64,000 nucleotides of DNA from Tannerella sp. (GTDB taxonomy: Bacteria > Bacteroidota > Bacteroidia > Bacteroidales > Tannerellaceae), in the NCBI GenBank assembly GCA_031285565.1, contig JAITVY010000036.1:36301-100300 (forward strand). The letters are read 5' to 3'. The translations under genes were made by a program, and so were the position numbers. Under the pieces are notes generated by a model that did not search any database, was not told the origin of the DNA, and worked only from the letters and a program-made list of their open reading frames with translations. Shown one piece after another: positions 34,360 through 49,077 of the stretch. The stretch's first letter is position 1. Every line of letters begins with the position of its first letter.

Positions 34360-34756
34360 TGGAGCTGGAGAGATTCGAACTCTCGTCCAAACGAGGAATT
34401 AATTTGCTTTCTACATGCTTATCTTCGCTTAAATTGTCGGCTTAAAGCAAGACCGAAGCTACCAACTTTAAACTTAGCCTTTAAATTTTCATCAAATGTC
34501 TAAGGCAAACATTTGACTATCTCCGATATTGCTGTACCACCTGATCGGATTGCTTCGAAGCCACAGCTTCCGGGTGATATCTCGTTCCAGTACCTTGTAC
34601 CGGAATAAAGCTTTGATCTACTATACTTCGATTAAGCAGCGAGAGCGTAATTATTTTCGCCAGTTAATGTTTTGTCAACCGAGATTAAAGTGCCAATCAA
34701 CGACGCACTGCATGCTTACAAACCACTTCTGCCCGCTGTCAAAACCGGTCAGCCCC
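34360..34756 (-). ncRNA. ssrA: transfer-messenger RNA (tmRNA)
   Basis: On the minus strand the RNA begins GGGGCTGACCGGTTTTGACAG and ends with the T arm GAGAGTTCGAATCTCT and CCAGCTCCA, so the tRNA-like ends pair (GGGGCTG with CAGCTCC). The tag frame at 34632-34661 encodes GENNYALAA followed by TAA, the usual Bacteroidales tag. tmRNA rescues stalled ribosomes. The mature 5' end lies inside the att repeat of the mobile element, which has replaced everything upstream of it. Confidence 0.97.
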
Positions 34757-34758
34757 AT
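34736..34758. repeat. attL: 23-bp core repeat at the ssrA 5' end
   Basis: Identical to 49055-49077 and in the same orientation; the shared core includes AAAACCGGTCAGCCCC. It overlaps the first 21 bases of the tmRNA gene, so the insertion leaves the tmRNA body intact on the left. Confidence 0.93.
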
Positions 34759-34809
34759 AGAATTGTAACTTGTTTATATTCAAAAGAAACCGACCGTCTT
34801 TTTATTTGT

Positions 34810-34835
34810 GGGTGACAAACTAGGGACAAAATTGA
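34810..34835 (+). repeat. left arm-type integrase binding repeat (candidate)
   Basis: GGGTGACAAAC followed by TAGGGACAAAATTGA. A 26-nt match with about five differences occurs at 48898-48923 near the right end in the same orientation. Both copies hold two GGGACAAA-like boxes 11 bp apart. Such paired sites inside both ends are typical arm sites of tyrosine recombinases. Confidence 0.55.
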
Positions 34836-34870
34836 AGAAATAATCATCAAAAGATCGGCTTCTTTCAATA

Positions 34871-34902
34871 CAAAGGTACTTATTATTTTTAAGTAGAGCA
34901 AA
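34871..34902 (-). promoter_or_regulatory. full-consensus promoter driving ssrA from within the element
   Basis: On the minus strand TTTG (34899-34902), a 20-bp spacer, then TACCTTTG (34871-34878). This is a complete Bacteroidota promoter. Transcription would begin near 34864 and run about 108 nt into the tmRNA 5' end at 34756. No protein gene lies between. Confidence 0.75.
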
Positions 34903-35318
34903 TTCGAATGACACCTGTTTTTTATGTTTCGGATAATTCGGTTTATTCCACGTGCTAAGACCTTTAATAAATTTAATGTACGCGTACTTAAATTAGCAAC
35001 CCTATTCATTTCGATTTAATAATAAGTTTCTGTTGAAAAATTCCCTTAATAAATGTCAGGTTTTGTCAGGTTCGATTTTTTTATACATCTCTTTTTAATA
35101 GACTCGTAAAATGCTCTTTTTTTATGCACTCCGAAAACTCCGTTTTTTTATAGCGTCAGGAAAGTCAGATTTTGTTTTTAAATTACTTATAATATGGGTA
35201 TTTAAATCTGTCGAAAAGTCGGTTCATTCAGTTTCTGTTTGCTACAATCTAATATTTATGTAGCCCAGGCATAAACAATAGTGTTAGAGAAGTATATTCT
35301 TTGTCTGGATAACAGGTT

Positions 35319-35600
35319 TTAACATGTTTTCAGCGGCAATTTGTCGAGCAAATGTTTTGCCATGTCCTGCATCTCTTTAATCCTTTTTTGGATTTCAACA
35401 TTCTTCAACAATCTTTGTCCTATAGAGTAGGCTGTATCTTCTGAATACCCAGCTCGTATAGTATTTTCTTTATTCTGTTTTGAATGTTAGCTTTTGTTAG
35501 GTTCTGACATCCGGTGACACGCGCTGTTTTTTCTTTATACTCTGCCTCATGAGGGAGAGCGCCGGATAAGTGAGGGAGAGTAATGGACATCACAATTTGT
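35319..35600 (-). pseudogene. phage terminase small-subunit relic (frameshifted)
   Basis: One minus-strand frame reads ...KEKTARVTGCQNLTKANIQNRIKKILYELG and then stops soon after. A one-base shift at about 35447 restores YSEDTAYSIGQRLLKNVEIQ and KRIKEMQDMAKHLLDKL to the stop at 35319-35321. The pattern (AGYSxxTAxxIGxxLLKNxxIQxxI) is that of Terminase_2/XtmA small terminases, which have an N-terminal HTH. The 5' half is also short, so the gene is broken. No terminase large subunit is nearby. Confidence 0.65.
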
Positions 35601-35658
35601 GATCTCAAGTTGATATCTCGGTATATTATTACCACTTGACTTGATATCTAACTATTTT

Positions 35659-35694
35659 CAAAAAAATGAGGCATCCTTATCTAAAGATAAGCCT
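35659..35694 (-). terminator. terminator after the ORF6N gene
   Basis: Read on the minus strand, AGGCTTATC pairs with GATAAGGATGCCT (4-nt bulge), followed by CATTTTTTTG. It lies just past the ORF6N stop and isolates the outward ssrA promoter from the repressor operon. Confidence 0.7.
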
Positions 35695-35699
35695 TTTAT

Positions 35700-36272
35700 C
35701 TAATCATCCGTCTTCCTGAATCCAACCGGATTACGGGGTTTGCTTACTTGCTTATGTTTGGCTGCTAGCTCTGCTAATGCTAAATAAATATCGTCAAACT
35801 CTTTCCGGTTATCTTCTGACAGATCGTTTATTGCAGCCAGAGTTTCTTCGCTAACTTCCTCTAATGCTTTGATACGATCTATAAGAGATGGCAACTGGTC
35901 ACTTTTTTTGGCGGCAGCTAAGACATTTCGAATAGCAACAAATGCACGCATAATGTTAATATTTACCTGAACGGCAACAGGAGACCGCAATACGCCGGAT
36001 AACATTGCTACTCCTTCCTGCGTGAATACAGACGGTGTAACAGGACTGTATTTAACTCCCTTTGGTAGGTTGTCGCAATTTGCGATAAGCTCTGTCCATT
36101 CATCTTTGGTTAACTGAAACATGAAATCATCAGGGAATCTTTCAATATTGCGTTTAACCTGTTCTTTAAGGCGTCTTGTCTCTACATCGTACATTTCCGC
36201 CAAATCAAAGTCCAGCATCACCCGTTGACCTCTGATCTCATAAATCTTGTTTTGGATTACCTGTAGTTCCAT
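35700..36272 (-). CDS. ORF6N-domain protein (phage antirepressor type)
   Basis: The start at 36272 gives 190 residues (MELQVIQNKIYEIRGQRVML). Residues 8-95 form the ORF6N domain: DFDLAEMYDVETRRLKEQVKRN, FPDDFMFQLTKDEW, and VFTQEGVAMLSGVLRSPVAVQVN. The C-terminal third is a coiled coil (DQLPSLIDRIKALEEVSEET). ORF6N proteins occur in phages and mobile elements as DNA-binding or antirepressor proteins. GGAGG at the end of the upstream XRE gene serves as ribosome site, 10 bp before the ATG, and the genes are 4 bp apart. Confidence 0.85.
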   Translation of the reverse strand: MELQVIQNKIYEIRGQRVMLDFDLAEMYDVETRRLKEQVKRNIERFPDDFMFQLTKDEWTELIANCDNLPKGVKYSPVTPSVFTQEGVAMLSGVLRSPVAVQVNINIMRAFVAIRNVLAAAKKSDQLPSLIDRIKALEEVSEETLAAINDLSEDNRKEFDDIYLALAELAAKHKQVSKPRNPVGFRKTDD

Positions 36273-36276
36273 AGAT

Positions 36277-36522
36277 TCACTCCTCCATCTTAAAGCGTTT
36301 ACCACAATTCGGGCAGGTTATTACATCGGTTGCCGGTTGCTCGAATAGTTCGGAGATAGGAACGTTTAAAGCCGTTGCTATGCGATCAAAAACGTCAATT
36401 GATGGTTTTGATTTTCCGTTAATCAAGTTACTTAAATTAGGCGTAGCAAGGTCAATCATTAACGCAAGCTCTTTGATTGCAATACCTTTTTCTTTCAAAA
36501 CGTCCTTAATTCTTAATTCCAT
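36277..36522 (-). CDS. XRE-family repressor with C-terminal zinc-knuckle motif
   Basis: This 81-residue protein has an HTH_3 domain (IKDVLKEKGIAIKELALMIDLATPNLSNLINGKSKPSIDVFDRIATAL) followed by a short C-terminal CPNCGKRF, half of a zinc ribbon that could pair between subunits. It is the likely repressor of the divergent genes. The intergenic region holds three similar operator-like words. Confidence 0.85.
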   Translation of the reverse strand: MELRIKDVLKEKGIAIKELALMIDLATPNLSNLINGKSKPSIDVFDRIATALNVPISELFEQPATDVITCPNCGKRFKMEE

Positions 36523-36529
36523 ATCCTTT

Positions 36530-36549
36530 ATATTAATGTTAAACGTTAT
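36530..36549 (-). promoter_or_regulatory. operator-like repeat O1
   Basis: On the minus strand ATAACGTTTAACATTAATAT. It matches 36598-36617 on the plus strand at 16 of 20 positions, and the core TTTAACATT also occurs at 36586-36597. The copies flank both predicted -7 elements. Confidence 0.5.
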
Positions 36550-36550
36550 G

Positions 36551-36558
36551 CAAATATA
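36551..36558 (-). promoter_or_regulatory. -7 element of the repressor gene
   Basis: TATATTTG on the minus strand, 29 bp upstream of the XRE start and adjacent to operator-like repeat O1. Confidence 0.5.
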
Positions 36559-36597
36559 AGCACAAATAATGACCGGCGTTATGAATAAATGTTAAAT

Positions 36598-36617
36598 ATA
36601 TCGTTTAGCGTTAATTT
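36598..36617 (+). promoter_or_regulatory. operator-like repeat O2
   Basis: ATATCGTTTAGCGTTAATTT on the plus strand, inverted relative to O1 (36530-36549). It ends 13 bp before the -33 box of the divergent promoter. Confidence 0.5.
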
Positions 36618-36630
36618 TATTGCCAAATAA

Positions 36631-36662
36631 TTTGCAATGCATAATGTCGCGTATTATCTTTG
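36631..36662 (+). promoter_or_regulatory. full-consensus promoter of the rightward gene group
   Basis: TTTG (36631-36634), 20-bp spacer, TATCTTTG (36655-36662). Transcription would begin near 36669. Confidence 0.75.
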
Positions 36663-36687
36663 TGTTGTAAAAATAATGACAGGCGAT

Positions 36688-37005
36688 ATGACAACGACAT
36701 CCAAATACAACAAGAGCAATATCATGAAAAGGGCATGGGAAATTAAAAGAGGTCGTCACTTCTCTTATCCAAGAGGCACACGCAATTGGTCATTTGCAAA
36801 ATGTCTTTCTTATGCTTGGGCTGATGAAAAAAGAATGGTTGCCAGGATCAACGAAGATGCAAACAAGCGTAACCGCACCGGTGAATGGTCAGCTGAGAAG
36901 GTAGCCGAAAGAAATGCAGCTATAAAAAAAACAAATGTATCACTTGCTTACTTGGCAGATACGCTTACTGATTACTACGCAAACAATCGCTATAACGGAG
37001 ATTAA
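36688..37005 (+). CDS. small phage-type basic protein
   Basis: Starting at 36688 (MTTTSKYNKSNIMKRAWEIKRG) the protein has 105 residues; in-frame ATGs at 36637 and 36676 lie before or just after the predicted transcription start. The basic N-terminus, KRAWEIK and WSFAKCLSYAWADEKRMV form a pattern I associate with small proteins of Bacteroidales phages and plasmids. It is the first gene under the divergent promoter and likely acts early. The function is unknown. Confidence 0.6.
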   Translation: MTTTSKYNKSNIMKRAWEIKRGRHFSYPRGTRNWSFAKCLSYAWADEKRMVARINEDANKRNRTGEWSAEKVAERNAAIKKTNVSLAYLADTLTDYYANNRYNGD

Positions 37006-37034: not shown

Positions 37035-37271
37035 ATGAAGACATTAAGATTAAATGAAAAACTTGAAAGCGCAATGAAAGCCGCTATAGTATTTAAATCA
37101 GAGATAAACGCTCTTGCATGTAATAAGGGCGAAGTATTCAATTGTAACAGTAAGTCTGTTATGCTAACGCTCGGACAGATGGATGACGATCTGTCTGATA
37201 TGATGCTTAAGCTAAGCGAGATTATCGGTTCTGATATATTTGAGAACGCGATAATTGATTCAAACGAGTAG
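37035..37271 (+). CDS. small hypothetical protein
   Basis: A 78-residue acidic, mostly helical protein (MKTLRLNEKLESAMKAAIVF ... LGQMDDDLSDMMLKLSEIIG). It begins 29 bp after the preceding gene on the same strand. I recognise no family. Confidence 0.5.
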   Translation: MKTLRLNEKLESAMKAAIVFKSEINALACNKGEVFNCNSKSVMLTLGQMDDDLSDMMLKLSEIIGSDIFENAIIDSNE

Positions 37272-37482: not shown

Positions 37483-37791
37483 ATGGACAAAAAGATAATT
37501 GAATGCCTTGAAAGGTTAAAAGACAGCAAAATAGTAAAGTCAGAATTTTACCATATCGACTTAACGACATTATGCGATGTAATCGAGTTCTTATCAGCCG
37601 ATGCCGGTCATGTACTCGACCTTATACAGAATTCGGGTTCAATAGATTCATTCAACCATCTTTTAGAGGATTTGCAAAGGCAGTTTTCTGTTATTTGGAC
37701 GCTGTGTGGAAAAATGAGAGATGAACTATCGAACGATGATTTTTATTGCCTGGGTGAGCTTTTTTATAATTACAAACAAGAATCAAAATGA
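37483..37791 (+). CDS. small hypothetical protein
   Basis: A 102-residue acidic helical protein (MDKKIIECLERLKDSKIV ... CGKMRDELSNDDFYCLGELF). It is the last rightward gene and ends at a hairpin shared with the convergent tape-measure gene. No family is recognised. Confidence 0.5.
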   Translation: MDKKIIECLERLKDSKIVKSEFYHIDLTTLCDVIEFLSADAGHVLDLIQNSGSIDSFNHLLEDLQRQFSVIWTLCGKMRDELSNDDFYCLGELFYNYKQESK

Positions 37792-37846: not shown

Positions 37847-40800
37847 TTACAGCCCCAATCCAGCCCCTTTCATCTTAACCCCTCCAGATTCAATAGCCTG
37901 AATGCTCGCAGCGGATTTGCCGACACTGACAGCTATGTTATCGTTAGAAGTTGCTATCCTATAATTCGTATCCCGTATTTCGCCCGACATAGTTTCCATG
38001 CGCCCGACTATCTCCCGGATCAGGGAGACGTCACGCCAACCGGCGACTTGTGCATCTTTCATGAGCTGGATGTTCTCAAATACCGGATTGAAAACGGATA
38101 TATCAAACATGGTTCCGAGTGTCCTTTCTAAGATTTCTTTGATACTTTCTAAAGCTACGCGCGCGGCTCCGGTCTGTCCGGCTAAAAGGTCAATAGATTC
38201 CTGTGAGGCTTTAGCGTATGCGCCTTTGAGGGTGTTTTCAGATGCATTTGAGTCTGTATTTAACAGAGACATGTCCCATCCCATATCAGTTGCCATTTTA
38301 TCCCAATTTTCTGCAACTGCAGTCCATGCGTCAATTGCCGTAGGTATTCCATCAAAGATCTCGGTCGTAATTGCAAGAAGTTCATTTTGTACCGCAGCTG
38401 GATCTCCCAGCCCGAACGCTTCCCGGATCTTTGGTCTGAATTGCTCCAAATATTCACCCAGAATCATTTCCTGTAGTAATGCTTTACCCAACGCATCCAC
38501 AACTTTTAAACCGGCTTTCTCGAATAAATCCCATGCGTCAGATCCATTTCTGACAGCTTCAAAGATTATGTCCGTTAAATCTGTTGCAATATTCCCGAAC
38601 GTAGACTCTATATGATCGTCAAGAACTTTCATTGCAGCGTCATACGCATCTTTTTGCTCAATGGAAAGTTCTAATTGCGTCCGAAGTTCATCAGAAATAT
38701 CTTTATGTGTTTCCAGAAACAACCGTGCAGCTTCGGCGTCAAACTCGCCATTTATGTCCCCTCCCCAGATTTCAGGGGCAAAATCAAAGAGTGTCTTGAA
38801 TCTATCCTTGGAGCCAAATTTATACCATTCATGTTCTGCAATCTGGATAAGACTCCCTTGCAAGACGCTCATATCCCGATCCATAGCATCTTGCAGAACT
38901 TTGCGAGCGTTAGACCGGACGGTATTATTTAAAAAGAATCCCTGGTATTTCTTTGTATTGTATAAGTCGAGATCAAGTTTTTCATTAACAGAATCATAAT
39001 ACGAGTTTACAGTTTTATTATAACTCTCGTAAGCCTTTATAGCTTGTTCTATACCGCGTTTTCCAAAAAAAGAGCTATACTCTTCTTCAAGATAGTTACG
39101 TTCCATCAACAATAAATTATACCTTTGAGCCCATTCCAGCTGCTCATTTTGCATTTGACGTATACGCTCCTGTTCCTTTATGTAACCATTAAATACAGAT
39201 GTTCCAACACCGCTAACTAATCCTCCTATAGCGCCCCATATCCCACCTGATTTCGCCCCTGAAGCAGTTTTGGTTAAGATGTCACTCCAGTCGTTCAAAG
39301 TTTCCGTGAAATCTTTTAGCCGTTGATCGCCGGTTACATCAGCAACTTCGCTAATCATTCCGGATATTTCAGACAACCCCTCTGCCGCCTGCAATGCTCC
39401 GTCTAATAGGTAATCTAAGCCCTCTTGTTTTGAAGCATCAGCTTTGTCTTCGAATAATTTTTTCTTAGCCTTATCTGTTTCTTTAATCGCTTTTTTTGTT
39501 TCCTCTGCAGATTCTTTCAGGCGATTAAAGCCCTTGATGATGTTTGAAAATGGATAATTTGTTTTATTGTCGTACTCTTCTTGCTTCTGAATCAGGGCGT
39601 CATAAATAGCTTTCAGTTTTTCAGGATCTTCTTTCAGTGCTTTAATTTGTTCCTCTGAAAAGCCGACCGGGATCTCAACCCCTTCCACTCCGTTAATGTA
39701 ATCCAGAAGGCGTTTGGTGTTTTTTATAATTTCATCGATACGCTTGCGGCTCATTTTAGAAGCATTGGAAAACAGGTCTGTAAACAGGTTGGATTTACCG
39801 GCAAACTCCTGATGAATGGCTTTGAGTTCCTTTTCCATTTCTTTCTCCAAAGATTTGCGTTCGCCTTCAGTTTTGGCATCGGTAATTTTTTTTGAATAAA
39901 TTTCTGTTGTAGCCAGGATCTTCTCTTGATATTTTCCATACTCTTTCAGGTATTCATTCATTGCCTGTTTTTCTGATTCAATTTGCTCTTTTATAGATTT
40001 TTTCCTGGCTTCTTCGGCAAGAAACGCATTATCTTCCAAATATTTTTGTTGAGAAGCCGGAAGCTGACCTACAGATGTTGTAGTAGGGGTGAAAGTCATC
40101 CCTTTTTCTTTCCATTTAGGGTTTTGCACCTCCCAGATTTTGCGTTCAATATCCTGTTGGGCTTTGATCATCTCGTCACCATTACGGGCAATATCAGCCA
40201 ATCTCTTTTCATAGTCAAGTTCTATTTGTGCATGAACTTTTGCAGATCCTTCGTCCATAAGGCTAATTTGCTGCTGTTGCAGATCGAGCTCGTTTTGGTA
40301 TTCCTGCTGTTTGATCTTTTTTTGTGCTTCCTGAATGGCGGCCAACCGGTCGGCTATTCCGGACTTTGATTTGTTGGAATCATTGGATGATTTTCTGGAA
40401 GTATCCCAAATTTTCAGCTTCTCCCGGGCGTTATTTACCCGCTCTAAAGCTTTATTCCATTTTTCAGATCCTTTTTCGGCTTCGTCAATTGCAGTGAATG
40501 CAGCTTTTGCTCCCTCCAATTCTTTTTTCCAAAATTCTTCATTTTTGACAACTGATTGATTCCTGGAATTAAGGGTATCGGTCAATGATTTTATCTGGTC
40601 TTGCAATTCGCTTTCACTAAAATCAAAGTCTATTCCCATATCAGACAAATTAACTTTTTCTCCACCATTATTTTTCAATATGGAAATAAGCCTTTGCCTT
40701 TGTTCTATGGCAGTATTAGCCTGCTCATCGGTAAGGTCTTTAAGTGTCGTTTTCCACTCCGCAACTGCATTATTTTTAACATCTTGCTGCTTCAATTTGA

Positions 40801-42433
40801 TAGCCTCCGCTAAATACTTCTCTACAGACGTTCCGCGTTCGTACCCCATTGAGTCAAGCAGGTCAAGTTCGTCTTTAGTCAATTGGATCGGAGTAAAACC
40901 ACCTTTCTTGTCCCGCGCCTGATCGATTTTTTCACTCAATTTCATTAACTGATCCAGCTCGCCCGAATCTGCCTGGATTTTTTGGTGTGCATCCAAATCC
41001 GCTAGTTCTTTCTTTAAGGCTATTAAATCCCGCAAATGCCCTTTTTCGTCGATATACTTTTCAATGATCCCGGGATACGCCCGCTTAAGTTCATCAAGGG
41101 CGCCAATCCGGTCTAACTCTGCTGTAGTGGCTTCATTTATTTTGGAAATAAGCTCATCAATCTTTCTTTTATGATCCTGCTCCTGTTGAAGAACGTCCTC
41201 TTTCCGTTTATTATAGGCAGCCTGCGCTTTTTCTGCCGCGTTGGTACTTTCCGACAATGCCCACATGGAAGCGACCAAACCAACTAAAACTGTAGCAGCT
41301 AAAACATAAGGGTTTTTTAGCATGGTAGCATTCAACAGCTTTTGAGCCTTTTCTACCAAAAGAAGTGCTTTGTAATTTGCTAGCTGCGCAATAGTCCAAC
41401 CTTGTTCGGCAGTGGTTGCTATTATAACGGCGGCTTTATATGTCCCATATGTTGCAATAAGTCCTGCCATAATTCTTCCGATCTTTTCATAATTAGCGAC
41501 AAGATTGGAAGCAACACCCACGGCATCATAAATAATGCCTTGATTTGCCTGACCTATACTGTTAAACATCATTTGTAATTCATCTTGCAGTTTGGATATT
41601 TGCCCGGTAACAGAAGCATTCTGTTTTTCCATCAAATTATAGAATCGACCCCCTTCGCTTGACATGTTCTTAAAGGCTTGTTCGACAAGAGGAAATCCAA
41701 TCTTGCCGGCTTCCACCATTTCGGATATTTCGGCGGATGTTTTTCCGAGCATTTTTGATAATTCATCAACGACAGGTATACCAGCCATTGCAAAGTCTCT
41801 GATTTCCCTTGATTGCAACCGCCCTAAAGCAGCCACCTGACCATAATTGACGGCAATACGAGAAATGGGGACAGAAACCCCGGCTGCTACATCTCCTAAT
41901 GCTTTCATCGTATCAATGACTTTATCAGCTTCAATGCCCATGGCAATTAGCTGCTTAGTATTGTCCGCAACTTCAGTAAGAGTGAAAGGTGTTTTTAGGG
42001 CTAATTCTTTAATATCCGACATCATGGAATCAGCTTTTGATTTGCTATTAAGCATTGTTTCGAAAGCTATTTCAAGCTGTTGGATTTCGCCTCTCACACT
42101 TACAACCTGACTGGCGAAGTTTTTGAGTGCATTAAGAGATAACGCCGCACCTCCAAGTTTATAAATAGCATTTGTAAAACGTTCAATATCATGTTCTGCA
42201 ACCTGAAAGTCTTTTCCGGAGCTTCTTATTTTATTTGCAGCCTTTTGTACACTTTCAGCTGTTTTATCATAGCTTTTTTGTAGCCCATTCAACTCTTTGA
42301 CTAATTTATCTACCGCCTTCCTGTCGCCCGATTGATTCATTTTATCGAGACTGTTTTTAACCCGGTCAATTTCTTCTTTCAGCTTAACAAGCTTTTCAAG
42401 ATTTACCGTAATATCAAATTTTAATCCTGCCAT
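37847..42433 (-). CDS. phage tail tape-measure protein
   Basis: This 1528-residue protein starts with a coiled coil (residues 1-75: KLKEEIDRVKNSLDKMNQ), then the tape-measure N-terminal domain (about 95-300: FETMLNSKSKADSMMSDIKELALKTPF, GDVAAGVSVPISRIAVNYGQVAALG, SREIRDFAMAGIPVVDELS). A hydrophobic segment follows (about 375-395: NPYVLAATVLVGLVASMWAL), then long coiled coils to about 1050, a Gly-rich hydrophobic stretch (SGGIWGAIGGLVSGVG), and a C-terminal helical part. In siphophages the protein sets tail length and passes into the cell with DNA. The frame is intact although no other virion gene is present. It begins 4 bp after the sigma-like gene. Confidence 0.92.
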   Translation of the reverse strand: MAGLKFDITVNLEKLVKLKEEIDRVKNSLDKMNQSGDRKAVDKLVKELNGLQKSYDKTAESVQKAANKIRSSGKDFQVAEHDIERFTNAIYKLGGAALSLNALKNFASQVVSVRGEIQQLEIAFETMLNSKSKADSMMSDIKELALKTPFTLTEVADNTKQLIAMGIEADKVIDTMKALGDVAAGVSVPISRIAVNYGQVAALGRLQSREIRDFAMAGIPVVDELSKMLGKTSAEISEMVEAGKIGFPLVEQAFKNMSSEGGRFYNLMEKQNASVTGQISKLQDELQMMFNSIGQANQGIIYDAVGVASNLVANYEKIGRIMAGLIATYGTYKAAVIIATTAEQGWTIAQLANYKALLLVEKAQKLLNATMLKNPYVLAATVLVGLVASMWALSESTNAAEKAQAAYNKRKEDVLQQEQDHKRKIDELISKINEATTAELDRIGALDELKRAYPGIIEKYIDEKGHLRDLIALKKELADLDAHQKIQADSGELDQLMKLSEKIDQARDKKGGFTPIQLTKDELDLLDSMGYERGTSVEKYLAEAIKLKQQDVKNNAVAEWKTTLKDLTDEQANTAIEQRQRLISILKNNGGEKVNLSDMGIDFDFSESELQDQIKSLTDTLNSRNQSVVKNEEFWKKELEGAKAAFTAIDEAEKGSEKWNKALERVNNAREKLKIWDTSRKSSNDSNKSKSGIADRLAAIQEAQKKIKQQEYQNELDLQQQQISLMDEGSAKVHAQIELDYEKRLADIARNGDEMIKAQQDIERKIWEVQNPKWKEKGMTFTPTTTSVGQLPASQQKYLEDNAFLAEEARKKSIKEQIESEKQAMNEYLKEYGKYQEKILATTEIYSKKITDAKTEGERKSLEKEMEKELKAIHQEFAGKSNLFTDLFSNASKMSRKRIDEIIKNTKRLLDYINGVEGVEIPVGFSEEQIKALKEDPEKLKAIYDALIQKQEEYDNKTNYPFSNIIKGFNRLKESAEETKKAIKETDKAKKKLFEDKADASKQEGLDYLLDGALQAAEGLSEISGMISEVADVTGDQRLKDFTETLNDWSDILTKTASGAKSGGIWGAIGGLVSGVGTSVFNGYIKEQERIRQMQNEQLEWAQRYNLLLMERNYLEEEYSSFFGKRGIEQAIKAYESYNKTVNSYYDSVNEKLDLDLYNTKKYQGFFLNNTVRSNARKVLQDAMDRDMSVLQGSLIQIAEHEWYKFGSKDRFKTLFDFAPEIWGGDINGEFDAEAARLFLETHKDISDELRTQLELSIEQKDAYDAAMKVLDDHIESTFGNIATDLTDIIFEAVRNGSDAWDLFEKAGLKVVDALGKALLQEMILGEYLEQFRPKIREAFGLGDPAAVQNELLAITTEIFDGIPTAIDAWTAVAENWDKMATDMGWDMSLLNTDSNASENTLKGAYAKASQESIDLLAGQTGAARVALESIKEILERTLGTMFDISVFNPVFENIQLMKDAQVAGWRDVSLIREIVGRMETMSGEIRDTNYRIATSNDNIAVSVGKSAASIQAIESGGVKMKGAGLGL

Positions 42434-42436
42434 CTT

Positions 42437-43123
42437 TTAATAATTATGTTTTTCTAAAATATAAGCAAACATGCTTTTTCTTTGATAATAAGCGATTAAA
42501 ATCTCTTTTATTCGCTCATTCGTTTTTTTATCTTTTGTCGTTTTCACTAAGGAACATTTATTTCTATCTTCCTGGTGTATAATTTCTGCTATTGCCTCAC
42601 GGACTATTTTATATTTTGAATAAAGTACGCTTTTGGATTCACCACCTGTCCATTCACTAAGAGGTTCGTTGCATATAAAATAATAATGAAAGACCCTGTA
42701 CTCCAAATCAGTCAATGTAAGCTCATCAAATATTTCACGGATCCTACTCATTGATTTAAGCACATAATCATCATTTTCATTTTCTTCATCAATATCTTCT
42801 TCATCCGGAATATGGTATAGCTGCTCATAATCGATATTTTCATCGATAGGCGGCATTCGATGTTTGCAGCGGTAAGAGGATGTTTCGGAATTAACGCTAA
42901 GGTTAATTATACGGAGGATGTAAAAGTCAAGGCTCCGGTATATTCCATGTTCGGTAAGGTATAACTCCTCTATATCGTCTTCGCTTTTTGACATTAACGA
43001 AATAATAGCTTCGTGCAGCACATCTCCGGCTTCGTCTTCTTTGCCAGCCCTGGCGCAATGGAATTTAGCATAATCAAGCCAGCGGTTGTAACGCTGATTG
43101 ATATATTTATTTAGAACATTCAT
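42437..43123 (-). CDS. phage-associated sigma-70-like protein
   Basis: This 228-residue protein has a sigma region-2-like N-terminus (NKYINQRYNRWLDYAKFHCARAGKEDEAGDVLHEAIISLM, then LDFYILRIINLSVNS), an acidic linker (DEEDIDEENENDD), and a C-terminal part with the helix run of region 4 (LTDLEYRVFHYYFICNEPLSEWTGGES). The match is weak, so it could be a DNA-binding protein that merely shares the fold. It lies directly upstream of the tape-measure gene, with a hairpin separating it from the gene before. Confidence 0.6.
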   Translation of the reverse strand: MNVLNKYINQRYNRWLDYAKFHCARAGKEDEAGDVLHEAIISLMSKSEDDIEELYLTEHGIYRSLDFYILRIINLSVNSETSSYRCKHRMPPIDENIDYEQLYHIPDEEDIDEENENDDYVLKSMSRIREIFDELTLTDLEYRVFHYYFICNEPLSEWTGGESKSVLYSKYKIVREAIAEIIHQEDRNKCSLVKTTKDKKTNERIKEILIAYYQRKSMFAYILEKHNY

Positions 43124-43219: not shown

Positions 43220-43696
43220 TCAAGCTATCTTAAGTAAACTATATTCTTCGTTGACAAGATTTGCAAAGTAATCCGGATGAGGCGATAGGAAATACTTTTT
43301 ATCTGCATCCGGATAGAATTTCTTTATTACCCGTTGTATTCTCTTATTGAGCTTAATCATTTCAGGGATCAGTTCATATAATTCTTTTTCCTGTAGCCGT
43401 TGATATAATGCATAGATGACAGCGTATAGTACAATTATAGCCGAAACATCTTCTTCCGGAGTAAATAGTCCCTTAAGCCTGATATTTAGTTCTCTGCTAT
43501 TACCTGAAAATCCGGTCAATAACCGCCGATAAAAGTACATTATACCATCGATATCATACATAAAGCTGATGATACTTTGAGGATGTCCCTGTGTTACTGC
43601 TCTATCCCCATGCTGTCCAAGATCTTTTATCAAATCGAAAACGTAACTTGCTAAATCCGGCCTGTCTTTTGTGTTATAGAATTCGTAGTAGTTCAT
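43220..43696 (-). CDS. hypothetical element protein
   Basis: A 158-residue helical protein (MNYYEFYNTKDRPDLASYVF ... IPEMIKLNKRIQRVIKKFYP). There is no signal peptide or recognised domain. It starts 3 bp after the preceding 80-residue gene. It belongs to the leftward block that ends with the tape-measure gene. Confidence 0.6.
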   Translation of the reverse strand: MNYYEFYNTKDRPDLASYVFDLIKDLGQHGDRAVTQGHPQSIISFMYDIDGIMYFYRRLLTGFSGNSRELNIRLKGLFTPEEDVSAIIVLYAVIYALYQRLQEKELYELIPEMIKLNKRIQRVIKKFYPDADKKYFLSPHPDYFANLVNEEYSLLKIA

Positions 43697-43699: not shown

Positions 43700-43942
43700 C
43701 TATCCTCTTTCTTCGACCATTTTCATTAATACCCCAGCCAGCTTTTTCGCTTCATCTCTGGACACACAGAGAACTAAATCCCCATTTATCACTTTTTTTC
43801 GTGTGACGCCCTCTATAAGGAATACCACCTCATCAGGCAAATCACGAATGCCGTCCTTCGAACGAAGTCTGACTGTTGATACACTCGTTGTAAAACGTAC
43901 CCCTAAATCATTTTTAATCTCATGAATTTTGATCGTACTCAT
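43700..43942 (-). CDS. small hypothetical element protein
   Basis: An 80-residue protein with alternating beta strands (GVRFTTSVSTVRLRSKDGIRDLPDEVVFLIEG) and a C-terminal helix. Its start overlaps the VRR-NUC gene's end by 23 bp. No function is known. Confidence 0.6.
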   Translation of the reverse strand: MSTIKIHEIKNDLGVRFTTSVSTVRLRSKDGIRDLPDEVVFLIEGVTRKKVINGDLVLCVSRDEAKKLAGVLMKMVEERG

Positions 43943-44477
43943 AGTTCTTTATTTTTAGCAAGAAATCATTGTAATTTTTTATTATGATATAAATACCACC
44001 TGCACTTTCAATGCTTTTCTGCATGGCTAATTGCTTTTCACTTTGTTTATCTTTTCCAATTTTAATCTCAATGTTAAATACAATACCATTGTAAATTATC
44101 AAAGTGTCTGTCACTCCTTTTGTTGAGCCGGAATGCCTGTACTTACCGATTTTGTAATCAAATATTCCAGTAGTATTCATGCGTTGGAAGTGTGCCCCAT
44201 TGATCTTACTCCATGCTTGCAAACACTTCGTCAATCCGTTTGAGGCATCATCCCGGAACTTAGTTATGAACCGGCAATTATCAGGAATAACTGAATCTTT
44301 GTACTTCCAGCTGAAGTAATCCTGTTCAAGCTGTTTAACTGAATCCGGTTTAACATAAGTCTTTTTAATTCGTACTTTCTGCTTATTTGTTTGTATCGGT
44401 ATGATTTCTTGTATATTCATTTGTTCTTTTGTTTTAAAATTCTTGATTTCAATTTCAGGTTTTCTTAGGTTTTGCAT
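43920..44477 (-). CDS. VRR-NUC-type nuclease (PD-(D/E)XK fold)
   Basis: The start at 44477 (MQNLRKPEIEIKNF) gives 185 residues; the ATG at 44519 lies inside the GTATAC repeat array. The C-terminal half shows the VRR-NUC pattern: STKGVTDTLIIYNGIVFNIEIKIGKDKQSEKQLAMQKSIESAGGIYIII, with the Asp and the EIK as metal ligands. Phage VRR-NUC proteins act as Holliday-junction resolvase-like or replication/recombination nucleases. It lies directly downstream of the RecA-fold ATPase and the repeat array. Confidence 0.85.
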   Translation of the reverse strand: MQNLRKPEIEIKNFKTKEQMNIQEIIPIQTNKQKVRIKKTYVKPDSVKQLEQDYFSWKYKDSVIPDNCRFITKFRDDASNGLTKCLQAWSKINGAHFQRMNTTGIFDYKIGKYRHSGSTKGVTDTLIIYNGIVFNIEIKIGKDKQSEKQLAMQKSIESAGGIYIIIKNYNDFLLKIKNYEYDQNS

Positions 44478-44499
44478 TACTGTAATATTGAAGCTATTT

Positions 44500-44615
44500 G
44501 GTATACAAAAGGTATACAATTTGGTATACTATAAGGTATACATGGTATAGAGGTATACAGTATACAGTGCCATATATGTATGGCACTGATATACTATACC
44601 AATATGTAGTATACT
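44500..44615. repeat. GTATAC iteron-like array with central hairpin
   Basis: GGTATAC or a one-base variant begins at 44500, 44511, 44523, 44535, 44544 (GGTATAG) and 44552; AGTATAC follows at 44559. Beyond the hairpin the words reappear at 44590 (TATAC), 44595 (TATACC) and 44608 (AGTATACT). Most spacings are 11-12 bp, near one helical turn. The hairpin (44565-44588) has stem CAGTGCCATA with TATGGCACTG. The array separates the ATPase and nuclease genes and is a candidate origin or regulator-binding site. Confidence 0.75.
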
Positions 44616-45672
44616 AAAAAGGTAAATTGCTCTGTTCATTTTGTGCTGGTTTAAAAATCCGGTGATACATCTTCACTTCGTTCTTCTCAATAATTCCAAG
44701 ATTTACCGCATCAGAAATCTGTCTTTTCGCATATGCAATCTTCACATTTTCGGATTCCATTATCTTTTCAGCCAATACTGTGTATGAGATAACACCTGGC
44801 AGCAATGGCATGACTTCATTCATTAGTTGCTCTAAACGTTCCTTTTTTGGAGTACGTTTTTCAACTTCGGTACATATTGGTAAGCCATCAAATACAGCAA
44901 AAGCAAAGTCATCCGGTCTAATGTCACGTGTCTTCGCAAACTTGCATAAAGAATTATCTCCGTCTGCTGTTATGCTAATTGCCGTTTCGCATTTCCTCAA
45001 CGCTTCGCTTCCCAGATGCCCGCGGGCTTTGTCACTTCCTATATTCGCATGAATAACCGTTAGGATATGGCAATCCAGCTTCTTAGTCACGTTAAGCAAA
45101 TAAGAGATAACCTCTGTACTTTGGTCGGGATTATTCGGGTCCGTGATCAGATCAGATAAACCATCCAGGATGATAAAGTCGGGCTTAAAATAATCAATAG
45201 CGAATTCGGCTATTTTCCTGCGTTCTGACGGACTTAATTCCCGGAGCATAAGAATGACTATGTTATCATTATTAACCTCAACCGGGAGCCCTGCAATGCG
45301 ATGCAGGCGCTTTCCGATTCGTGCTACATGTCCGGCGGCTTGTTCGGTGTCAATCCAAAGTATTTTCCCGGTTCCGTTAGGTGCTTCCATTCCTAAATAT
45401 CCGTTTTCGTTGAGGAGATTCCCGGCTATTCCGGTACAGAGGAAAGATTTCCGGCTTCCGGGCAAGCCTATCACTACCGAAAAGTTTCCCCGGGTACATA
45501 CGGGCAAGCCGGATAAAGTTATCATTGGCGCCGGATCCGGGTTTGATTTGGCAAGATCTAACCGGTAGCTATTGACTTTTTCAATAAGTAAAACCTTTTC
45601 TTTTTCCTTATCCGGATCGTATGGCTCACCGTTAAGCCTATGACCTATCAGCTTTGTTATTTCATTTTGCAT
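44614..45672 (-). CDS. RecA-fold replicative ATPase (RepA/AAA_25-type)
   Basis: The start at 45672 (MQNEITKLIGHRLNG) gives 352 residues; an in-frame ATG at 45696 would overlap the upstream gene. Walker A is in VVIGLPGSRKSFLCTG (near residue 67), a DnaB-type strand GKILWIDTEQ follows, and Walker B is FIILDGLSDLI. Motif spacing matches hexameric RepA helicase-type proteins of plasmids and phage elements. The C-terminal 90 residues (EQLMNEVMPLLPGVISYTVLAEKI) resemble a winged helix. It is the best candidate for the element's replication protein and its stop overlaps the repeat array. Confidence 0.85.
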   Translation of the reverse strand: MQNEITKLIGHRLNGEPYDPDKEKEKVLLIEKVNSYRLDLAKSNPDPAPMITLSGLPVCTRGNFSVVIGLPGSRKSFLCTGIAGNLLNENGYLGMEAPNGTGKILWIDTEQAAGHVARIGKRLHRIAGLPVEVNNDNIVILMLRELSPSERRKIAEFAIDYFKPDFIILDGLSDLITDPNNPDQSTEVISYLLNVTKKLDCHILTVIHANIGSDKARGHLGSEALRKCETAISITADGDNSLCKFAKTRDIRPDDFAFAVFDGLPICTEVEKRTPKKERLEQLMNEVMPLLPGVISYTVLAEKIMESENVKIAYAKRQISDAVNLGIIEKNEVKMYHRIFKPAQNEQSNLPF

Positions 45673-45676
45673 AGGC

Positions 45677-46120
45677 TTAATGTTTGTTTGATGCATATTC
45701 CTGAAATAACTGACCTCTATTATACTCGTAACCCCTTGGATTTTCAAAACTGTACCCGCATAAATCAATAACAATCTGTTTAGCGGTAGCGTAATCCGGC
45801 AGGTCGGGTTTTAGCGGGAAATAAACCAGAGCCATATCGCCATTAAATTCGTGATGCCTGGCATGGTTTAATTTATCCCATATAAGCCGCCAGATATCTA
45901 TTGGTTCGCATTGCTCTAATGCCCGGCAAATTTCATCCAGGGCATTGATAAGGTCAGCCCTTTTATTTATACTTGTAATTGAATCAGGATACTTTCGCTT
46001 ATACTGAACTAAATTTACATCCATTTGATCAACAATCAAACGAAGCTGTCCGATCGGGTTATCAGCGCCTTGCCGGTTTTTGATAGCTGATTGCATCCGT
46101 GTCCCAATGTTATTATTCAT
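45677..46120 (-). CDS. hypothetical element protein
   Basis: The start at 46120 (MNNNIGTRMQSAIKNRQ) is preceded by AAGGAGG 5 bp upstream, which decides it over the ATG at 46138 (147 residues). The helical N-terminal part (QLRLIVDQMDVNLVQYKRKYP) is followed by a C-terminal segment rich in aromatic residues. It resembles nothing I can name. It stands between small regulators and the ATPase. Confidence 0.6.
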   Translation of the reverse strand: MNNNIGTRMQSAIKNRQGADNPIGQLRLIVDQMDVNLVQYKRKYPDSITSINKRADLINALDEICRALEQCEPIDIWRLIWDKLNHARHHEFNGDMALVYFPLKPDLPDYATAKQIVIDLCGYSFENPRGYEYNRGQLFQEYASNKH

Positions 46121-46445
46121 AACAGCCTCCTTCCTCATCGAATAGTGACATTTGTACAGGAAATTTCTTTAAGTGCCTTGGATCGGTAGTATAGTAGTTT
46201 ACCATTAAGCCGGTAAAATCACAACGGCCACGATGATGTACAATGATCTGGTTATTTGCTCTAAGCATTCCGGAATACCAACAGATATTACTTCTTTCCT
46301 CGCTTAATTCAATTGCTACCTGGCGCATTGTTTTGGGACATTCGCAAAATGAATCTTTTACCCGTTGAAGTTGGTTTTCAGAAAAGGATGTGTTATCTTT
46401 GTGATGCGTTTGGGCGGCTTCGGTCGCTCTTTTCTTTTGTCTCAT
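46113..46445 (-). CDS. small putative winged-helix element protein
   Basis: A 110-residue protein with a likely winged helix (VKDSFCECPKTMRQVAIELSEERSNICWYSGMLRANNQIIVHHRG). Similar small proteins accompany Bacteroidales integrases. Its start overlaps the preceding HTH gene by 4 bp (ATGA). Confidence 0.6.
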   Translation of the reverse strand: MRQKKRATEAAQTHHKDNTSFSENQLQRVKDSFCECPKTMRQVAIELSEERSNICWYSGMLRANNQIIVHHRGRCDFTGLMVNYYTTDPRHLKKFPVQMSLFDEEGGCYE

Positions 46446-46741
46446 TTTGAAACCCTCCCGATATTACCGGTAACAATATAATCCGTTGCCATTTTGTCAA
46501 TCTCATTACTGGTTGATACCCTGTTTTGTTTCATCCAATTTTCCAATTCCAAACGATCAAAATAAATTTGCTTACCATTGGGTTTGTAATGTGGAATTTG
46601 GTGTGAACAAGTTAGTTTATACAAATGGCTTTTTGACAAGCCGGTTAATAAAGCAACATCTTCAAAAGTTAAAACGTTTTTTGCTGATAACAAGCTATTA
46701 CGCTCTATTCTGCTTAACTGATCTAAAATTTTTTCTTCCAT
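46442..46741 (-). CDS. excisionase-like HTH_17 protein
   Basis: A 99-residue MerR-type helix-turn-helix protein (LTFEDVALLTGLSKSHLYKLTCSHQIPHYKPNGKQIYFDRLELENWM), the pattern of Bacteroides excisionase/DNA-binding proteins. It would act as recombination directionality factor or as an activator of the genes it leads. Its gene follows the 47-kb block and leads the packed group down to the ATPase. Confidence 0.8.
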   Translation of the reverse strand: MEEKILDQLSRIERNSLLSAKNVLTFEDVALLTGLSKSHLYKLTCSHQIPHYKPNGKQIYFDRLELENWMKQNRVSTSNEIDKMATDYIVTGNIGRVSK

Positions 46742-46852: not shown

Positions 46853-46885
46853 CAACTGTTGTGTGCTGTTATGTTGTGTAATCCT

Positions 46886-47665
46886 TTATACTTTTAGGAT
46901 ATTGTCTAAATCATCAAATTCTTTTGGACGGTCCTTATAACCGTTCTTAATCTTACTTAGTGTTGTTTTCATTGTATCTGTGTTTGGCTTTTCTCCTTTC
47001 AAGGTAAAGATCTTACTTGTGATACTCCATAATCTTGACCCATCTGTATCCCCAAACAAAGTGTTTACAAGATGAGCTAATAGCTGCTGATCCTTTATCC
47101 AATTAAGGGGTGTTGCAGGTATCTGTTTGGTGGTGTTTCCACAACAAATGTAAAGCCATGTTTGCAAATCACTGTTAGCATCAAAATATTTGTGCTCTTT
47201 AAGCTTTTCAAATATCGTTGTTAAGTTTATTTCTGTTTCTCCAGAATGAAAGTTTGTTCCTTTATCAGTATCTAATCCTTTAGGCAAAGTCTTGGGAGTT
47301 TCTGATAGTTTCTGTTTAGGTTCATTCTCTGTATTTTTTGATTCTTCTGAATGTAAATTTTGTGGTGCAATATTAACTAAATGCGCACAGCAGTCAGTCA
47401 CACTATTTCTTGTTTTATTACTTAGTTCATACCAGCCTAATAGCTGGTGCAAGGTGTATCGTTGGGTATTTTCTACTTCATTAAGGAAGTTACTATCTTT
47501 TGACATCAAAACGTATATTTCCATTTTCTTAGACATTTCTCCAACTCTATCCAGATCCGAAATAATAGCTGGAGGAATTTCCATTTTACGCTCAACAAAT
47601 AAACATGTAGTATTTATAATTTTTCTCAATTCAACCAATAATCCGTATGCCTCGGTTTTGTCCAT
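46886..47665 (-). CDS. hypothetical protein downstream of the integrase
   Basis: A 259-residue protein. The N-terminal 120 residues are helical; a linker rich in Glu/Lys/Thr follows; the C-terminal 100 residues read IFEKLKEHKYFDANSDLQTWLYICCG ... LNWIKDQQLLAHLVNTLF, a W-x-x-x-x-x-L-A pattern reminiscent of RteC-like regulators in Bacteroides mobile elements. That likeness is weak. The gene lies 17 bp after the integrase stop and ends at a terminator. Confidence 0.6.
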   Translation of the reverse strand: MDKTEAYGLLVELRKIINTTCLFVERKMEIPPAIISDLDRVGEMSKKMEIYVLMSKDSNFLNEVENTQRYTLHQLLGWYELSNKTRNSVTDCCAHLVNIAPQNLHSEESKNTENEPKQKLSETPKTLPKGLDTDKGTNFHSGETEINLTTIFEKLKEHKYFDANSDLQTWLYICCGNTTKQIPATPLNWIKDQQLLAHLVNTLFGDTDGSRLWSITSKIFTLKGEKPNTDTMKTTLSKIKNGYKDRPKEFDDLDNILKV

Positions 47666-47682
47666 AATTCTTTTCGTCTTTA

Positions 47683-48846
47683 TTAATCAAATAACCCATC
47701 TTGTTTTTTTACAGCTTCTTTTTTGCTCTCATCTATGATCTTTGCATAGATTTGAGTAGTCGATATCTTAGTGTGTCCTAAGAGCTTTGAAACCGTTTCT
47801 ATTGGTACGCCTAAACTTAGGTTAAGCGTTGCCGCAGTATGACGTGAGCAATGAAATGAGAGCCGTTTATTTATATTGGCTGCTTCGCTCCATTTACGTA
47901 GCTTTCTGTTGGCGTGATCGTTTTTAGGCAGGATAAAAACATACTTCTCATCGTTTGCTTCGTTTCTATCCGGAAGCCATTTTAACGCCTCGTTACTGAT
48001 AGGGAAGTCTTCATGGCGTTTCGTCTTTAAAACTTTCAGTCTCAATATGACCTCTCCGTCATTATCCTTATAAAACTGCCCCCATGTTAAATTCTTTACA
48101 TCGCTATACCGGATACCACATAGACAGCAAAACAGAAAAGCACGTTTTATCATATCATCGTTACAAGGTGCTTTAATGAGCATCTTCATTTCTTCAATAG
48201 TAAGAAACTCCCGGGTTCCGTCTTCTCCTTTTGGTTTATCATCGCTATCAATTTTATCCAATGGATTGACCTGGATGATTTCGGCTAGTATTGCCTTCTT
48301 AATGACGTATGCAAACTTCTTGAATAAGTTATGTTGTGTGTTAGGTGACAATATGCCATCCTCAACTTCTTTTTTTAGTAAATTAAAGTTTTTAGCTGAT
48401 CGCAGATATACAATGAATCTTTTTACAAAGTCATGATCTACTTGCTGAAATGTGATTTTGTCACCGGCAAAACTGTTGAGATGCTTTGCTAATGAGTGAA
48501 GAGTATAGTAATAGCTTCTTTTGTTTCCGGTTTTAGCCAATGCTTCATCTGCAAGAAACAGGACATAGCCGATGAGGTTTGTTTTGGATTTGGTTGTATT
48601 GTTTTTAAATCCGTATTCATTATTCTGGATTTGAACAATACGTTTTGCTTTGATTGCATTAGCTAATTGAAGAGTGGTAGCATTTGTTTTACGTGCTTCT
48701 TTCGTTTGCTCTGGAATAAGATAAAGCTTAAGGTACTCTCTATTTCTTTTACCGTTGATATAGACATCAAGAAATAAACTTTGGCTTCCGTTAGAAAGCA
48801 TTTTTGTCCGGATCCTGATCGGCTCTTTCACTTTTGTCTCTTTCAT
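47683..48846 (-). CDS. tyrosine recombinase / integrase
   Basis: A 387-residue phage-integrase family protein. The N-terminal arm-binding region (1-90) and core-binding SAM-like domain (100-200: LNSFAGDKITFQQVDHDFVKRFIVYLRS) precede the catalytic domain with Arg in CGIRYSDVKNL, HxxR in SFHCSRHTAATL, His in LLGHTKISTTQIY and the tyrosine nucleophile in that IYAKI segment. It resembles Bacteroidales mobile-element integrases and would catalyse insertion at the ssrA core. A terminator lies upstream. Confidence 0.95.
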   Translation of the reverse strand: MKETKVKEPIRIRTKMLSNGSQSLFLDVYINGKRNREYLKLYLIPEQTKEARKTNATTLQLANAIKAKRIVQIQNNEYGFKNNTTKSKTNLIGYVLFLADEALAKTGNKRSYYYTLHSLAKHLNSFAGDKITFQQVDHDFVKRFIVYLRSAKNFNLLKKEVEDGILSPNTQHNLFKKFAYVIKKAILAEIIQVNPLDKIDSDDKPKGEDGTREFLTIEEMKMLIKAPCNDDMIKRAFLFCCLCGIRYSDVKNLTWGQFYKDNDGEVILRLKVLKTKRHEDFPISNEALKWLPDRNEANDEKYVFILPKNDHANRKLRKWSEAANINKRLSFHCSRHTAATLNLSLGVPIETVSKLLGHTKISTTQIYAKIIDESKKEAVKKQDGLFD

Positions 48847-48897
48847 TTTCGAATTAATTTGTCACCCAACACAAAGTTAATATTTATTTCTGTATTC

Positions 48898-48923
48898 GGG
48901 GGACAAACGGGGGACAAAAATGA
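48898..48923 (+). repeat. right arm-type integrase binding repeat (candidate)
   Basis: GGGGGACAAACG followed by GGGGACAAAAATGA, matching the left copy at 34810-34835 with about five differences. An inverted half copy, TTTGTCACCC, lies at 48858-48867. Confidence 0.55.
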
Positions 48924-48924
48924 G

Positions 48925-48970
48925 TAAAAAAAGAGCCAATCAAAAGAAAATTAACATTTCTTAATTGGCT
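48925..48970 (-). terminator. terminator between the host side and the integrase gene
   Basis: Read on the minus strand AGCCAATTAAGAAA pairs with TTTCTTTTGATTGGCT (two-base bulge, 7-nt loop), followed by CTTTTTTTAC. It would stop transcription entering from the stranded ssrA promoter before the integrase gene. Confidence 0.75.
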
Positions 48971-49054
48971 TATAATATGACTGTAAGAGTCTGAAATTCT
49001 TTCTTTTATTTGACTTTTTCTTTGCTCTTATTTACTGTTGATTTTTGGGCTATT

Positions 49055-49077
49055 CTGTCAAAACCGGTCAGCCCCAT
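49055..49077. repeat. attR: 23-bp core repeat
   Basis: Identical to 34736-34758 and in the same orientation. Beyond it to the right lies the original ssrA upstream region with its promoter. Confidence 0.93.

Follow-up and report, generated by a model that had tools for sequence, protein, structure and literature searches.

A satellite-like element carrying its own tape measure gene at the 5′ end of ssrA in a Tannerella genome, and its relatives in the Bacteroidales

Results

The element at the 5′ end of ssrA

The window analysed here is a stretch of 64,000 nucleotides from a Tannerella sp. contig (JAITVY010000036.1 of assembly GCA_031285565.1, positions 36,301 to 100,300; coordinates below count from its first letter), and it contains a 14.3-kb element inserted at the 5′ end of ssrA, the gene for tmRNA. 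The element is enclosed by a perfect 23-bp direct repeat (34736–34758 and 49055–49077) with 14,296 bp between the two attachment (att) copies, and the window holds no other direct repeat of at least 20 bp. The ssrA gene, which encodes the tag GENNYALAA, lies on the minus strand at 34359–34756 according to ARAGORN and at 34357–34756 according to Rfam (141 bits). The repeat consists of the first 21 bases of ssrA plus the two bases upstream; the copy at 34736–34758 completes the 5′ end of the gene, and the second copy lies next to an esterase gene (49132–50013, minus strand) that homology identifies as the original neighbour of ssrA. A first-pass annotation, made from the letters of the window alone, had bounded the element by this same repeat and had called insertion at the 5′ end of such a gene uncommon; the Islander collection agrees, with 159 islands displacing a 5′ tDNA fragment versus 3,760 displacing a 3′ fragment among 3,919 (accessible part of PMC4383910).

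Seventeen genes of the element were analysed. At the end distal to ssrA, a tyrosine integrase gene, int (47683–48846, minus strand; Phage_integrase, 3.8e-24), is followed by the gene for a 259-aa protein known by its position (46886–47665, minus strand) and by that for an excisionase-like helix-turn-helix (HTH) protein (46442–46741, minus strand; HTH_17/excise family match). A RepA-type AAA_25 ATPase (44614–45774, minus strand) stands beside an iteron-like GTATAC array with a palindrome (44496–44598), a candidate replication origin. Towards ssrA, a gene for an XRE-type regulator (HTH_3; 36277–36522, minus strand) diverges from that of a 122-aa protein, p122 (36637–37005, plus strand). These family matches, together with the array, bear out the integrase, excisionase-like protein, ATPase beside iterons and divergent repressor of the first-pass annotation. 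So does the search for virion genes, which found the single one it had described: a gene for a tape measure protein (TMP) of 1,528 aa (37847–42433, minus strand; TMP_3, 1.3e-26; phrog_9959, 3.7e-183). No large-terminase, portal, major-capsid or tail-tube family matched any of the 17 proteins, and the largest open reading frame (ORF) of the element apart from those of the integrase, RepA and TMP has 259 aa.

Empty and occupied sites in related genomes

The comparison sample held one genome per species and thus no strains of the same species; genomes are cited below by G numbers (the window's own is G000) and loci by L numbers. With the esterase as a probe, a relative was found in 113 of 123 genomes of the bacterial family, and the loci of the 30 best matches were examined. 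At ten of them an intact tmRNA gene adjoins the esterase gene (within 480 bp), which represents the empty site; at three (the window, G162 and G166) an integrase gene stands there instead, and the remaining 16 showed neither tmRNA nor integrase within the stretch examined. The site is also empty in G023, of the same genus, as read through two overlapping contigs that meet there. In G162, which belongs to another genus, a whole syntenic element lies between the tmRNA and esterase genes, ends in 25-bp repeats and encodes an integrase 69% identical to that of the window, followed in order by the HTH protein, RepA, a primase-like protein, the nuclease, TMP, the XRE regulator and a p122-like protein.

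Because of the empty sites and the syntenic element of G162, the ssrA junction is a real attachment site and the window element no one-off. A defective prophage that is a one-off remnant would look otherwise, in that G162 has this compact set at this very site and other relatives are empty there. Among the genomes searched there was also no full prophage of which the window element would be a deletion. The first-pass annotation had proposed a phage satellite or a prophage reduced to the same set of genes and had suggested a search of relatives for the same gene order at ssrA and for empty sites; both were found, and its reading is supported.

A separate arrangement was seen in G051 (contig C10; L127/L158), in which an element with an integrase directly adjoins the 3′ end of ssrA and is followed by an oppositely oriented, TMP-bearing element. 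The ssrA leader at this locus resembles the end of the G162 element (70% over 124 bp).

A recurring family of elements

In all, seven elements bounded by direct repeats were delimited, with lengths between 14.3 and 21.0 kb: those of the window (14.3 kb, 23-bp repeat), G162 (14.9 kb, 25 bp), G068a (14.3 kb, 17 bp), G068b (15.8 kb, 15 bp), G051a (14.8 kb, 22 bp), G042 (20.1 kb, 19 bp) and Bacteroides fragilis Q1F2 (21.0 kb, 25 bp). The two shortest of these repeats (15 and 17 bp) overlap genes for tRNA-Leu and tRNA-Ala. The integrase, the XRE regulator, the p122-like protein and the TMP are homologous across all seven (linkage at E 1e-4), and the usual order is integrase, post-integrase protein, HTH protein (in most), replication protein, TMP, and the XRE and p122-like genes. 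The post-integrase protein is present throughout at 259–329 aa with no homology detected between its versions. Replication proteins are of the RepA type in four elements, DnaB in G051a and G042, and of the primase type in G068a. Two further TMP-bearing elements, in G051 (L127/L159) and in G111 from another bacterial family, have unmapped ends. The recurrence of a single virion gene across the family goes beyond what the first-pass annotation had read from the window.

Hidden Markov model searches of the six carrier genomes placed no large terminase (phrog_2, PF03237, phrog_9), portal (PF04860, phrog_12) or major head protein (phrog_10) inside any element; phrog_9, phrog_12 and phrog_10 gave three matches each, and all nine fall within prophages of G000, G162 and G042. 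The families searched are not exhaustive (phrog_2 and PF03237 missed the large terminase of a prophage in the window's own genome, which was found as phrog_9); the ORF sizes serve as a second argument against head and terminase genes. ORFs of at least 250 aa in the seven elements encode the integrase, the post-integrase protein, replication-type proteins (one of these is a DUF1376 protein, in G042, and another, in B. fragilis, is helicase-like), the TMP and, in G042 and B. fragilis, one unnamed protein. Family-library scans outside the window element covered selected proteins only. Extra tail-gene homologues are kept in the G042 element (one) and in the B. fragilis element (three), and the G042 element encodes a complete small terminase (1.2e-30).

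The way in which the elements were found bears on how often a TMP is to be expected. Those of G068a, G051a and G042 were picked up by searching for the TMP, which matched in 35 of 148 genomes, whereas searches with RepA led to those of B. fragilis, G162 and G068b. Among 20 regions around RepA matches, the TMP set matched in three, one of which (L127) had been chosen because the TMP had also matched there, and one more contained a 627-aa TMP of a PHROG type. Six satellite-like RepA loci could be read from the replication gene to the XRE gene, leaving out two loci of G175 and one of G167 that are cut short or unclear; four carry a TMP (window, G162, G068b and B. fragilis) and two, G052 and G070, do not. 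RepA relatives as such are widespread (61 of 295 genomes) and are no mark of satellites.

All four RepA-type elements have an array of short repeats and an AT-rich palindrome, the latter identified by eye, just 3′ of repA. In the window, seven of the element's nine GTATAC copies fall in the 161 bp that follow repA on its 3′ side. The repeat unit, as judged by eye, differs per element, being GGGTAC-like in G162, GGGTA-like in G068b and TACAC-like in B. fragilis. A constant position with a changing iteron sequence would be expected of an origin read by a co-varying initiator.

A small gene encoding 86–107 aa lies directly upstream of the TMP gene in G162, G068a and G068b and one gene away from it in G042. 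We considered it as a TMP-linked, Rta-like inhibitor and dropped the idea, as its family also occurs in L188, a TMP-less locus. L188, from IMG/VR, is related to the satellite backbone and has a 528-aa protein of no known function where the TMP would be. Two other loci are recorded here for completeness. L119 (G068, contig C10) is an element with a 627-aa TMP-like protein of a different family, phrog_24676; the prophage TMPs of G000, G042 and G162 match this family too. L168, a satellite-like 14.7-kb IMG/VR contig, encodes an integrase, RepA, XRE, a protein like head maturation proteases and a 679-aa virion-like protein, with no TMP match and with a second integrase fragment at the contig end.

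Relationships of the tape measure proteins

The TMPs of the satellite-like elements resemble those of prophages from the same bacterial family, the closest pair being G051a and the prophage of G072 with 53% identity over the full length. They vary strongly between elements, and their reading frames are intact, at 1,281–1,605 codons, in all eight elements compared. Such long open frames fit a gene kept in use better than one in decay.

Trees were built on the first 480 residues. All ten prophage rows of the final tree either have one or more further relatives of tail or head genes beside them or are a source of those queries; a TMP from G111 had been entered as a prophage row and was dropped, having no tail gene nearby and satellite-like neighbours. 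The prophage TMP of G035 was left out of all three trees since its ORF lacks the N-terminal part. The satellites formed one branch in none of 200 bootstrap trees, and the approximately unbiased (AU) test rejected a single satellite clade both with the doubtful G111 row (p 1.3e-6; five satellite versus 11 other rows) and after its removal (p 1.1e-52; five versus ten). The long-branched TMPs of B. fragilis, G162 and G068b were left out of both AU-tested trees; in a tree that includes them the satellites again came together in none of 200, the AU test having been run on the others only. The tree needs four changes of label between satellite and prophage, of which well-supported branches force three with G111 and two without it. 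This intermixing indicates that TMPs have most likely been exchanged between phages and satellites more than once. In a phage collection the window TMP matched 203 records, none of them covered to 80%; the best matches listed are Bacteroides phages with 31% identity over 53% of the query.

The ends of the ssrA elements

Since integration takes place at the 5′ end of the gene, ssrA is severed from its own promoter. The consensus TAnnTTTG is that of the Bacteroidetes −7 box, and such a box lies 20–42 bp from att in all 11 empty sites. In the window the displaced native promoter-like box, TACCTTTG at 49098–49105 (minus strand), is found 28 bp from att, now facing int. The opposite end of the element (34759–34928, minus strand), which now forms the ssrA leader, has a TACCTTTG box of its own at 34871–34878, 120 bp from att. 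The G162 element likewise has a promoter-like box at 120 bp, and the ssrA-side ends of the two elements are 73% identical over 124 bp. Identity of 74% over 110 bp also connects the window end with the ssrA leader of G035 (L004); the one ORF seen upstream of that leader, in 1.5 kb, is not an integrase. The similarity of the window end both to the G162 end and to the G035 leader suggests that this end of the element has probably captured the promoter region of an ssrA gene. Across the genus the distance from box to ssrA ranges from about 20 to about 123 bp without a visible element (L005–L032), so that the length of a leader is in itself no sign of an insertion; some of the longer ones may have been left behind by elements since lost.

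On the integrase side, a TAACTTTG box (48872–48879, minus strand) 33 bp upstream of int is the putative int promoter. Between the att copy on this side and int lies a terminator-like hairpin (48926–48970, minus strand; −13.1 kcal/mol, z −3.1, with one of 200 shuffles equally good) followed by a run of seven U. A hairpin and a T-rich run occupy the same position between att and int at all four integrase ends with an ssrA 5′ fragment (window, G162, G166 and G070), and the stems differ in sequence among the four. A consensus terminator scanner listed nothing in 48800–49200, since the stem contains a bulge. Transcription started at the native promoter, or in the circular form at the portable one, would be halted by the hairpin before it reached int. 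We set aside the notion that, once the element is integrated, int is transcribed from the captured ssrA promoter, because this hairpin lies between them.

Remaining genes of the window element

Near the ssrA-side end lie a 71-aa ORF (35420–35635, minus strand) and the gene of an ORF6N antirepressor-like protein (35700–36305, minus strand). The first-pass annotation had taken the former for a small-terminase relic; the family search returned a Terminase_2 match, across 32 residues of this short ORF and at 4.7e-6 just over the cut-off, and neither the small terminase of G042 nor a packaging protein of G051 matched anything in 34759–37000 at E 10, so that "possible relic" is the wording we retain. 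ORF6N proteins are usually read as antirepressors, and that of the window also matches PDC-S05, a PADLOC candidate defence family (5.6e-56). On the plus strand, the gene for p122 is followed by those of a 78-aa protein without a family (37035–37271) and a 102-aa protein with relatives in G042 and G051 (37483–37791).

The remaining genes are on the minus strand. The TMP gene is abutted by the gene for a 228-aa protein, p228 (42437–43123), which had no match in the family libraries scanned and is represented by two proteins in a set of 5.8 billion, one of them p228 itself. Its AlphaFold model is of low confidence (predicted local distance difference test score, pLDDT, 58); Foldseek found nothing for it at E 0.001, with sigma factors numerous among the top matches, which gives a weak hint that p228 may be a late regulator. 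Next come a 158-aa protein without a family (43220–43696), an 80-aa protein with a distant relative in L188 (43700–43942) and a nuclease (43920–44519) with relatives in G162 and G068. The nuclease had been named VRR-NUC; PHROGs sustain a nuclease, as endonuclease / Holliday junction resolvase, and Pfam gave no match at E 0.1 that would sustain the narrower name. Upstream of repA are genes for a 153-aa protein with relatives in G175 and G052 (45677–46138) and for a 110-aa protein (46113–46445).

Discussion

A probable satellite that brings its own tape measure

The element family is real and recurring, and its members are best read as phage satellites bringing their own tape measure. For the window element in particular we think it probable, with moderate confidence, that it is a helper-dependent satellite that builds its own TMP into the tails of a helper phage and leaves in chimeric particles; the step from the gene to a chimeric tail is taken from the analogy with the PLEs described below and from the anatomy of the element. 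According to this reading, infection by a helper or its induction would relieve repression by the XRE regulator, the integrase and the excisionase-like HTH protein would excise the element at the 23-bp repeats, and RepA would fire the iteron array beside its gene. The large terminase of the helper would then package the element DNA into helper heads, and tails would assemble on the satellite TMP with the tube, chaperone and tip of the helper. While the element is integrated, the promoter-like box in its left end would feed ssrA, and the terminator-like hairpin would keep transcription from the displaced native promoter away from int.

The features common to satellites in general are present, namely att repeats, an integrase, regulators and replication genes, and a full virion set is absent, with no capsid, portal or large terminase found by the non-exhaustive set of families searched. 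Like the phage-inducible chromosomal islands (PICIs), the elements have int at one end, a divergent regulator, a replication module and, in most, a length of about 14–15 kb, and some members of the family encode a small terminase; in the window the XRE gene diverges from that of p122, and the putative iterons lie 3′ of repA, downstream of int. They differ in carrying a large tail gene, as far as genes assigned by family can tell: where PICIs have no structural genes and redirect packaging through a small terminase or capsid factors, the window has the 1,528-aa TMP and the 32-residue terminase match. Capsid-forming PICIs (cf-PICIs) are alike in being satellites that bring virion parts, and differ in having a capsid of their own, for which there is no gene among the 17 window proteins.

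The direct precedent comes from Vibrio, where satellites with chimeric tails are already known among the PICI-like elements (PLEs). In the accessible part of PMC12987554, PLE11 brings a TMP, a chaperone and a baseplate hub of its own, its virions hold the PLE TMP with the phage TMP excluded, and putative tmp genes are reported in PLE-like elements and cf-PICIs (legend of Extended Data Fig. 10). The likeness, drawn from description, is that of a satellite-encoded TMP unlike the phage's and of a chimeric-tail logic, which in our case is predicted. PLE11 differs in adding the chaperone and the baseplate hub and in dealing with contractile tails (same part of PMC12987554), whereas the Bacteroidales TMP mostly has no such partners and follows a RepA/iteron, helicase or primase module. 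The ssrA branch is akin to the Islander islands with 5′ fragments in that a tmRNA 5′ fragment is displaced across the element; the terminator-like hairpin on the integrase side and the replacement promoter-like box at the other end, both at conserved positions, go beyond that description.

A literature search, with most subscription papers and bioRxiv outside it, found nothing uniting "phage satellite", "tape measure" and "Bacteroid", and among the matches listed for satellite literature naming Bacteroid(ales) or Parabacteroides none describes these elements, judging by title and start of abstract.

Helper phages and points that weigh against this reading

Several observations count against a satellite with its own tape measure. 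On contig C34 (1–36070; L189, L190), the genome of the window (assembly 83% complete) has a siphophage prophage that looks complete, with both terminase subunits, portal, major head protein and a 1,076-aa TMP. That TMP, of a different family, matched none of 20 satellite and phage TMPs at E 1e-2, which makes the prophage no obvious donor or helper. At the PLE ratio of 95 aa to about 10–15 nm, the 452 aa by which the window TMP exceeds it would correspond to about 48–71 nm of tail, were that phage the helper. The prophage TMP of G162 likewise had no match in the set of 20, and that of G042 (794 aa) is weakly related to the B. fragilis satellite TMP (2e-11). These mismatches suggest that the window satellite is suited to a class of phage other than those resident. 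G068, G051 and B. fragilis gave no phrog_9, portal or head matches and hence no resident helper of that type, for which reason we have lowered our confidence slightly, to the level stated above. In the window element the small terminase is only a fragment, which leaves packaging specificity unexplained. The TMP is not universal either, being absent from two RepA-type relatives, G052 and G070, and from L188. Finally, IMG/VR scans with RepA, the nuclease, p228 and the TMP of the window found no relative; a scan with a RepA alignment found 14 loci, none matching the TMP set, and one with the small TMP-neighbour protein found two only, the chromosomal G042 element itself and the TMP-less L188.

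Five GenBank contigs from "human fecal samples" with RepA matches were considered as packaged satellites and dropped, since they encode other large proteins and gave no TMP match; several of their proteins we take, by eye, to be conjugation-like. The phage collection held no near-identical phage DNA. A second phage-like contig of the window's genome, C22 (L164, L165), has a 708-aa ORF matching a large-terminase family and is presumably crAss-like, again by eye.

Other explanations

The alternative that survives best, and that we nevertheless regard as unlikely, is a reduced prophage, that is, a siphophage that lost its head and most tail genes and kept a TMP with no role in transfer. The homology of the TMP to prophage TMPs of the same bacterial family would fit it, as would the relic-like small-terminase fragment and the additional tail-gene homologues of the G042 and B. 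fragilis elements. It accounts poorly for a set found again and again, in several genera and at att sites that differ, with the TMP frame open (1,281–1,605 aa) in eight of eight cases, and with no large terminase, portal or head gene found. The integrase, XRE and p122-like genes are, moreover, shared within the family and also with one TMP-less relative, and a leftover of 4–5 kb that is repeatedly kept open would be unlike decay.

Less likely again is a mobile island in which the TMP serves as a decoy or an inhibitor, poisoning or rerouting the tail assembly of an invader so that the host is protected, and which transfers by other means. Tail assembly is indeed targeted by the satellite and prophage defences Tab, Tai and Rta (PMC10884400, PMC11364771 and PMC12987554, each in its accessible part), and the strong variation of the TMPs could be read in the same way. 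The inhibitors described in these parts are separate proteins and not full-length TMPs, and the replication modules and the G042 small terminase point to packaging. A decoy role is compatible with a satellite that builds its TMP into helper tails, the two not being exclusive. An integrative mobilisable element that acquired phage genes and moves by conjugation is highly improbable: related RepA-type ATPases also occur on contigs with genes that we take by eye to be conjugation-like, whereas none of the 17 window-element proteins matched a relaxase or coupling protein.

Significance

For the Bacteroidales as a whole we advance, tentatively and with less confidence than for the window element, a wider proposition: that they harbour a widespread, undescribed satellite family whose sole recurring virion gene is a TMP, swapped repeatedly with siphophages and re-tooling helper tails, with a branch at ssrA that possesses a 5′-end kit of portable tmRNA promoter and terminator. 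If true, such re-tooling of tails would be a general satellite strategy that extends to another phylum, where it is mostly pared down to one protein, in a family that occurs in culturable commensals (B. fragilis, Parabacteroides). The structure of the ssrA ends suggests how an element may cut an important RNA gene off from its promoter and yet leave it expressed.

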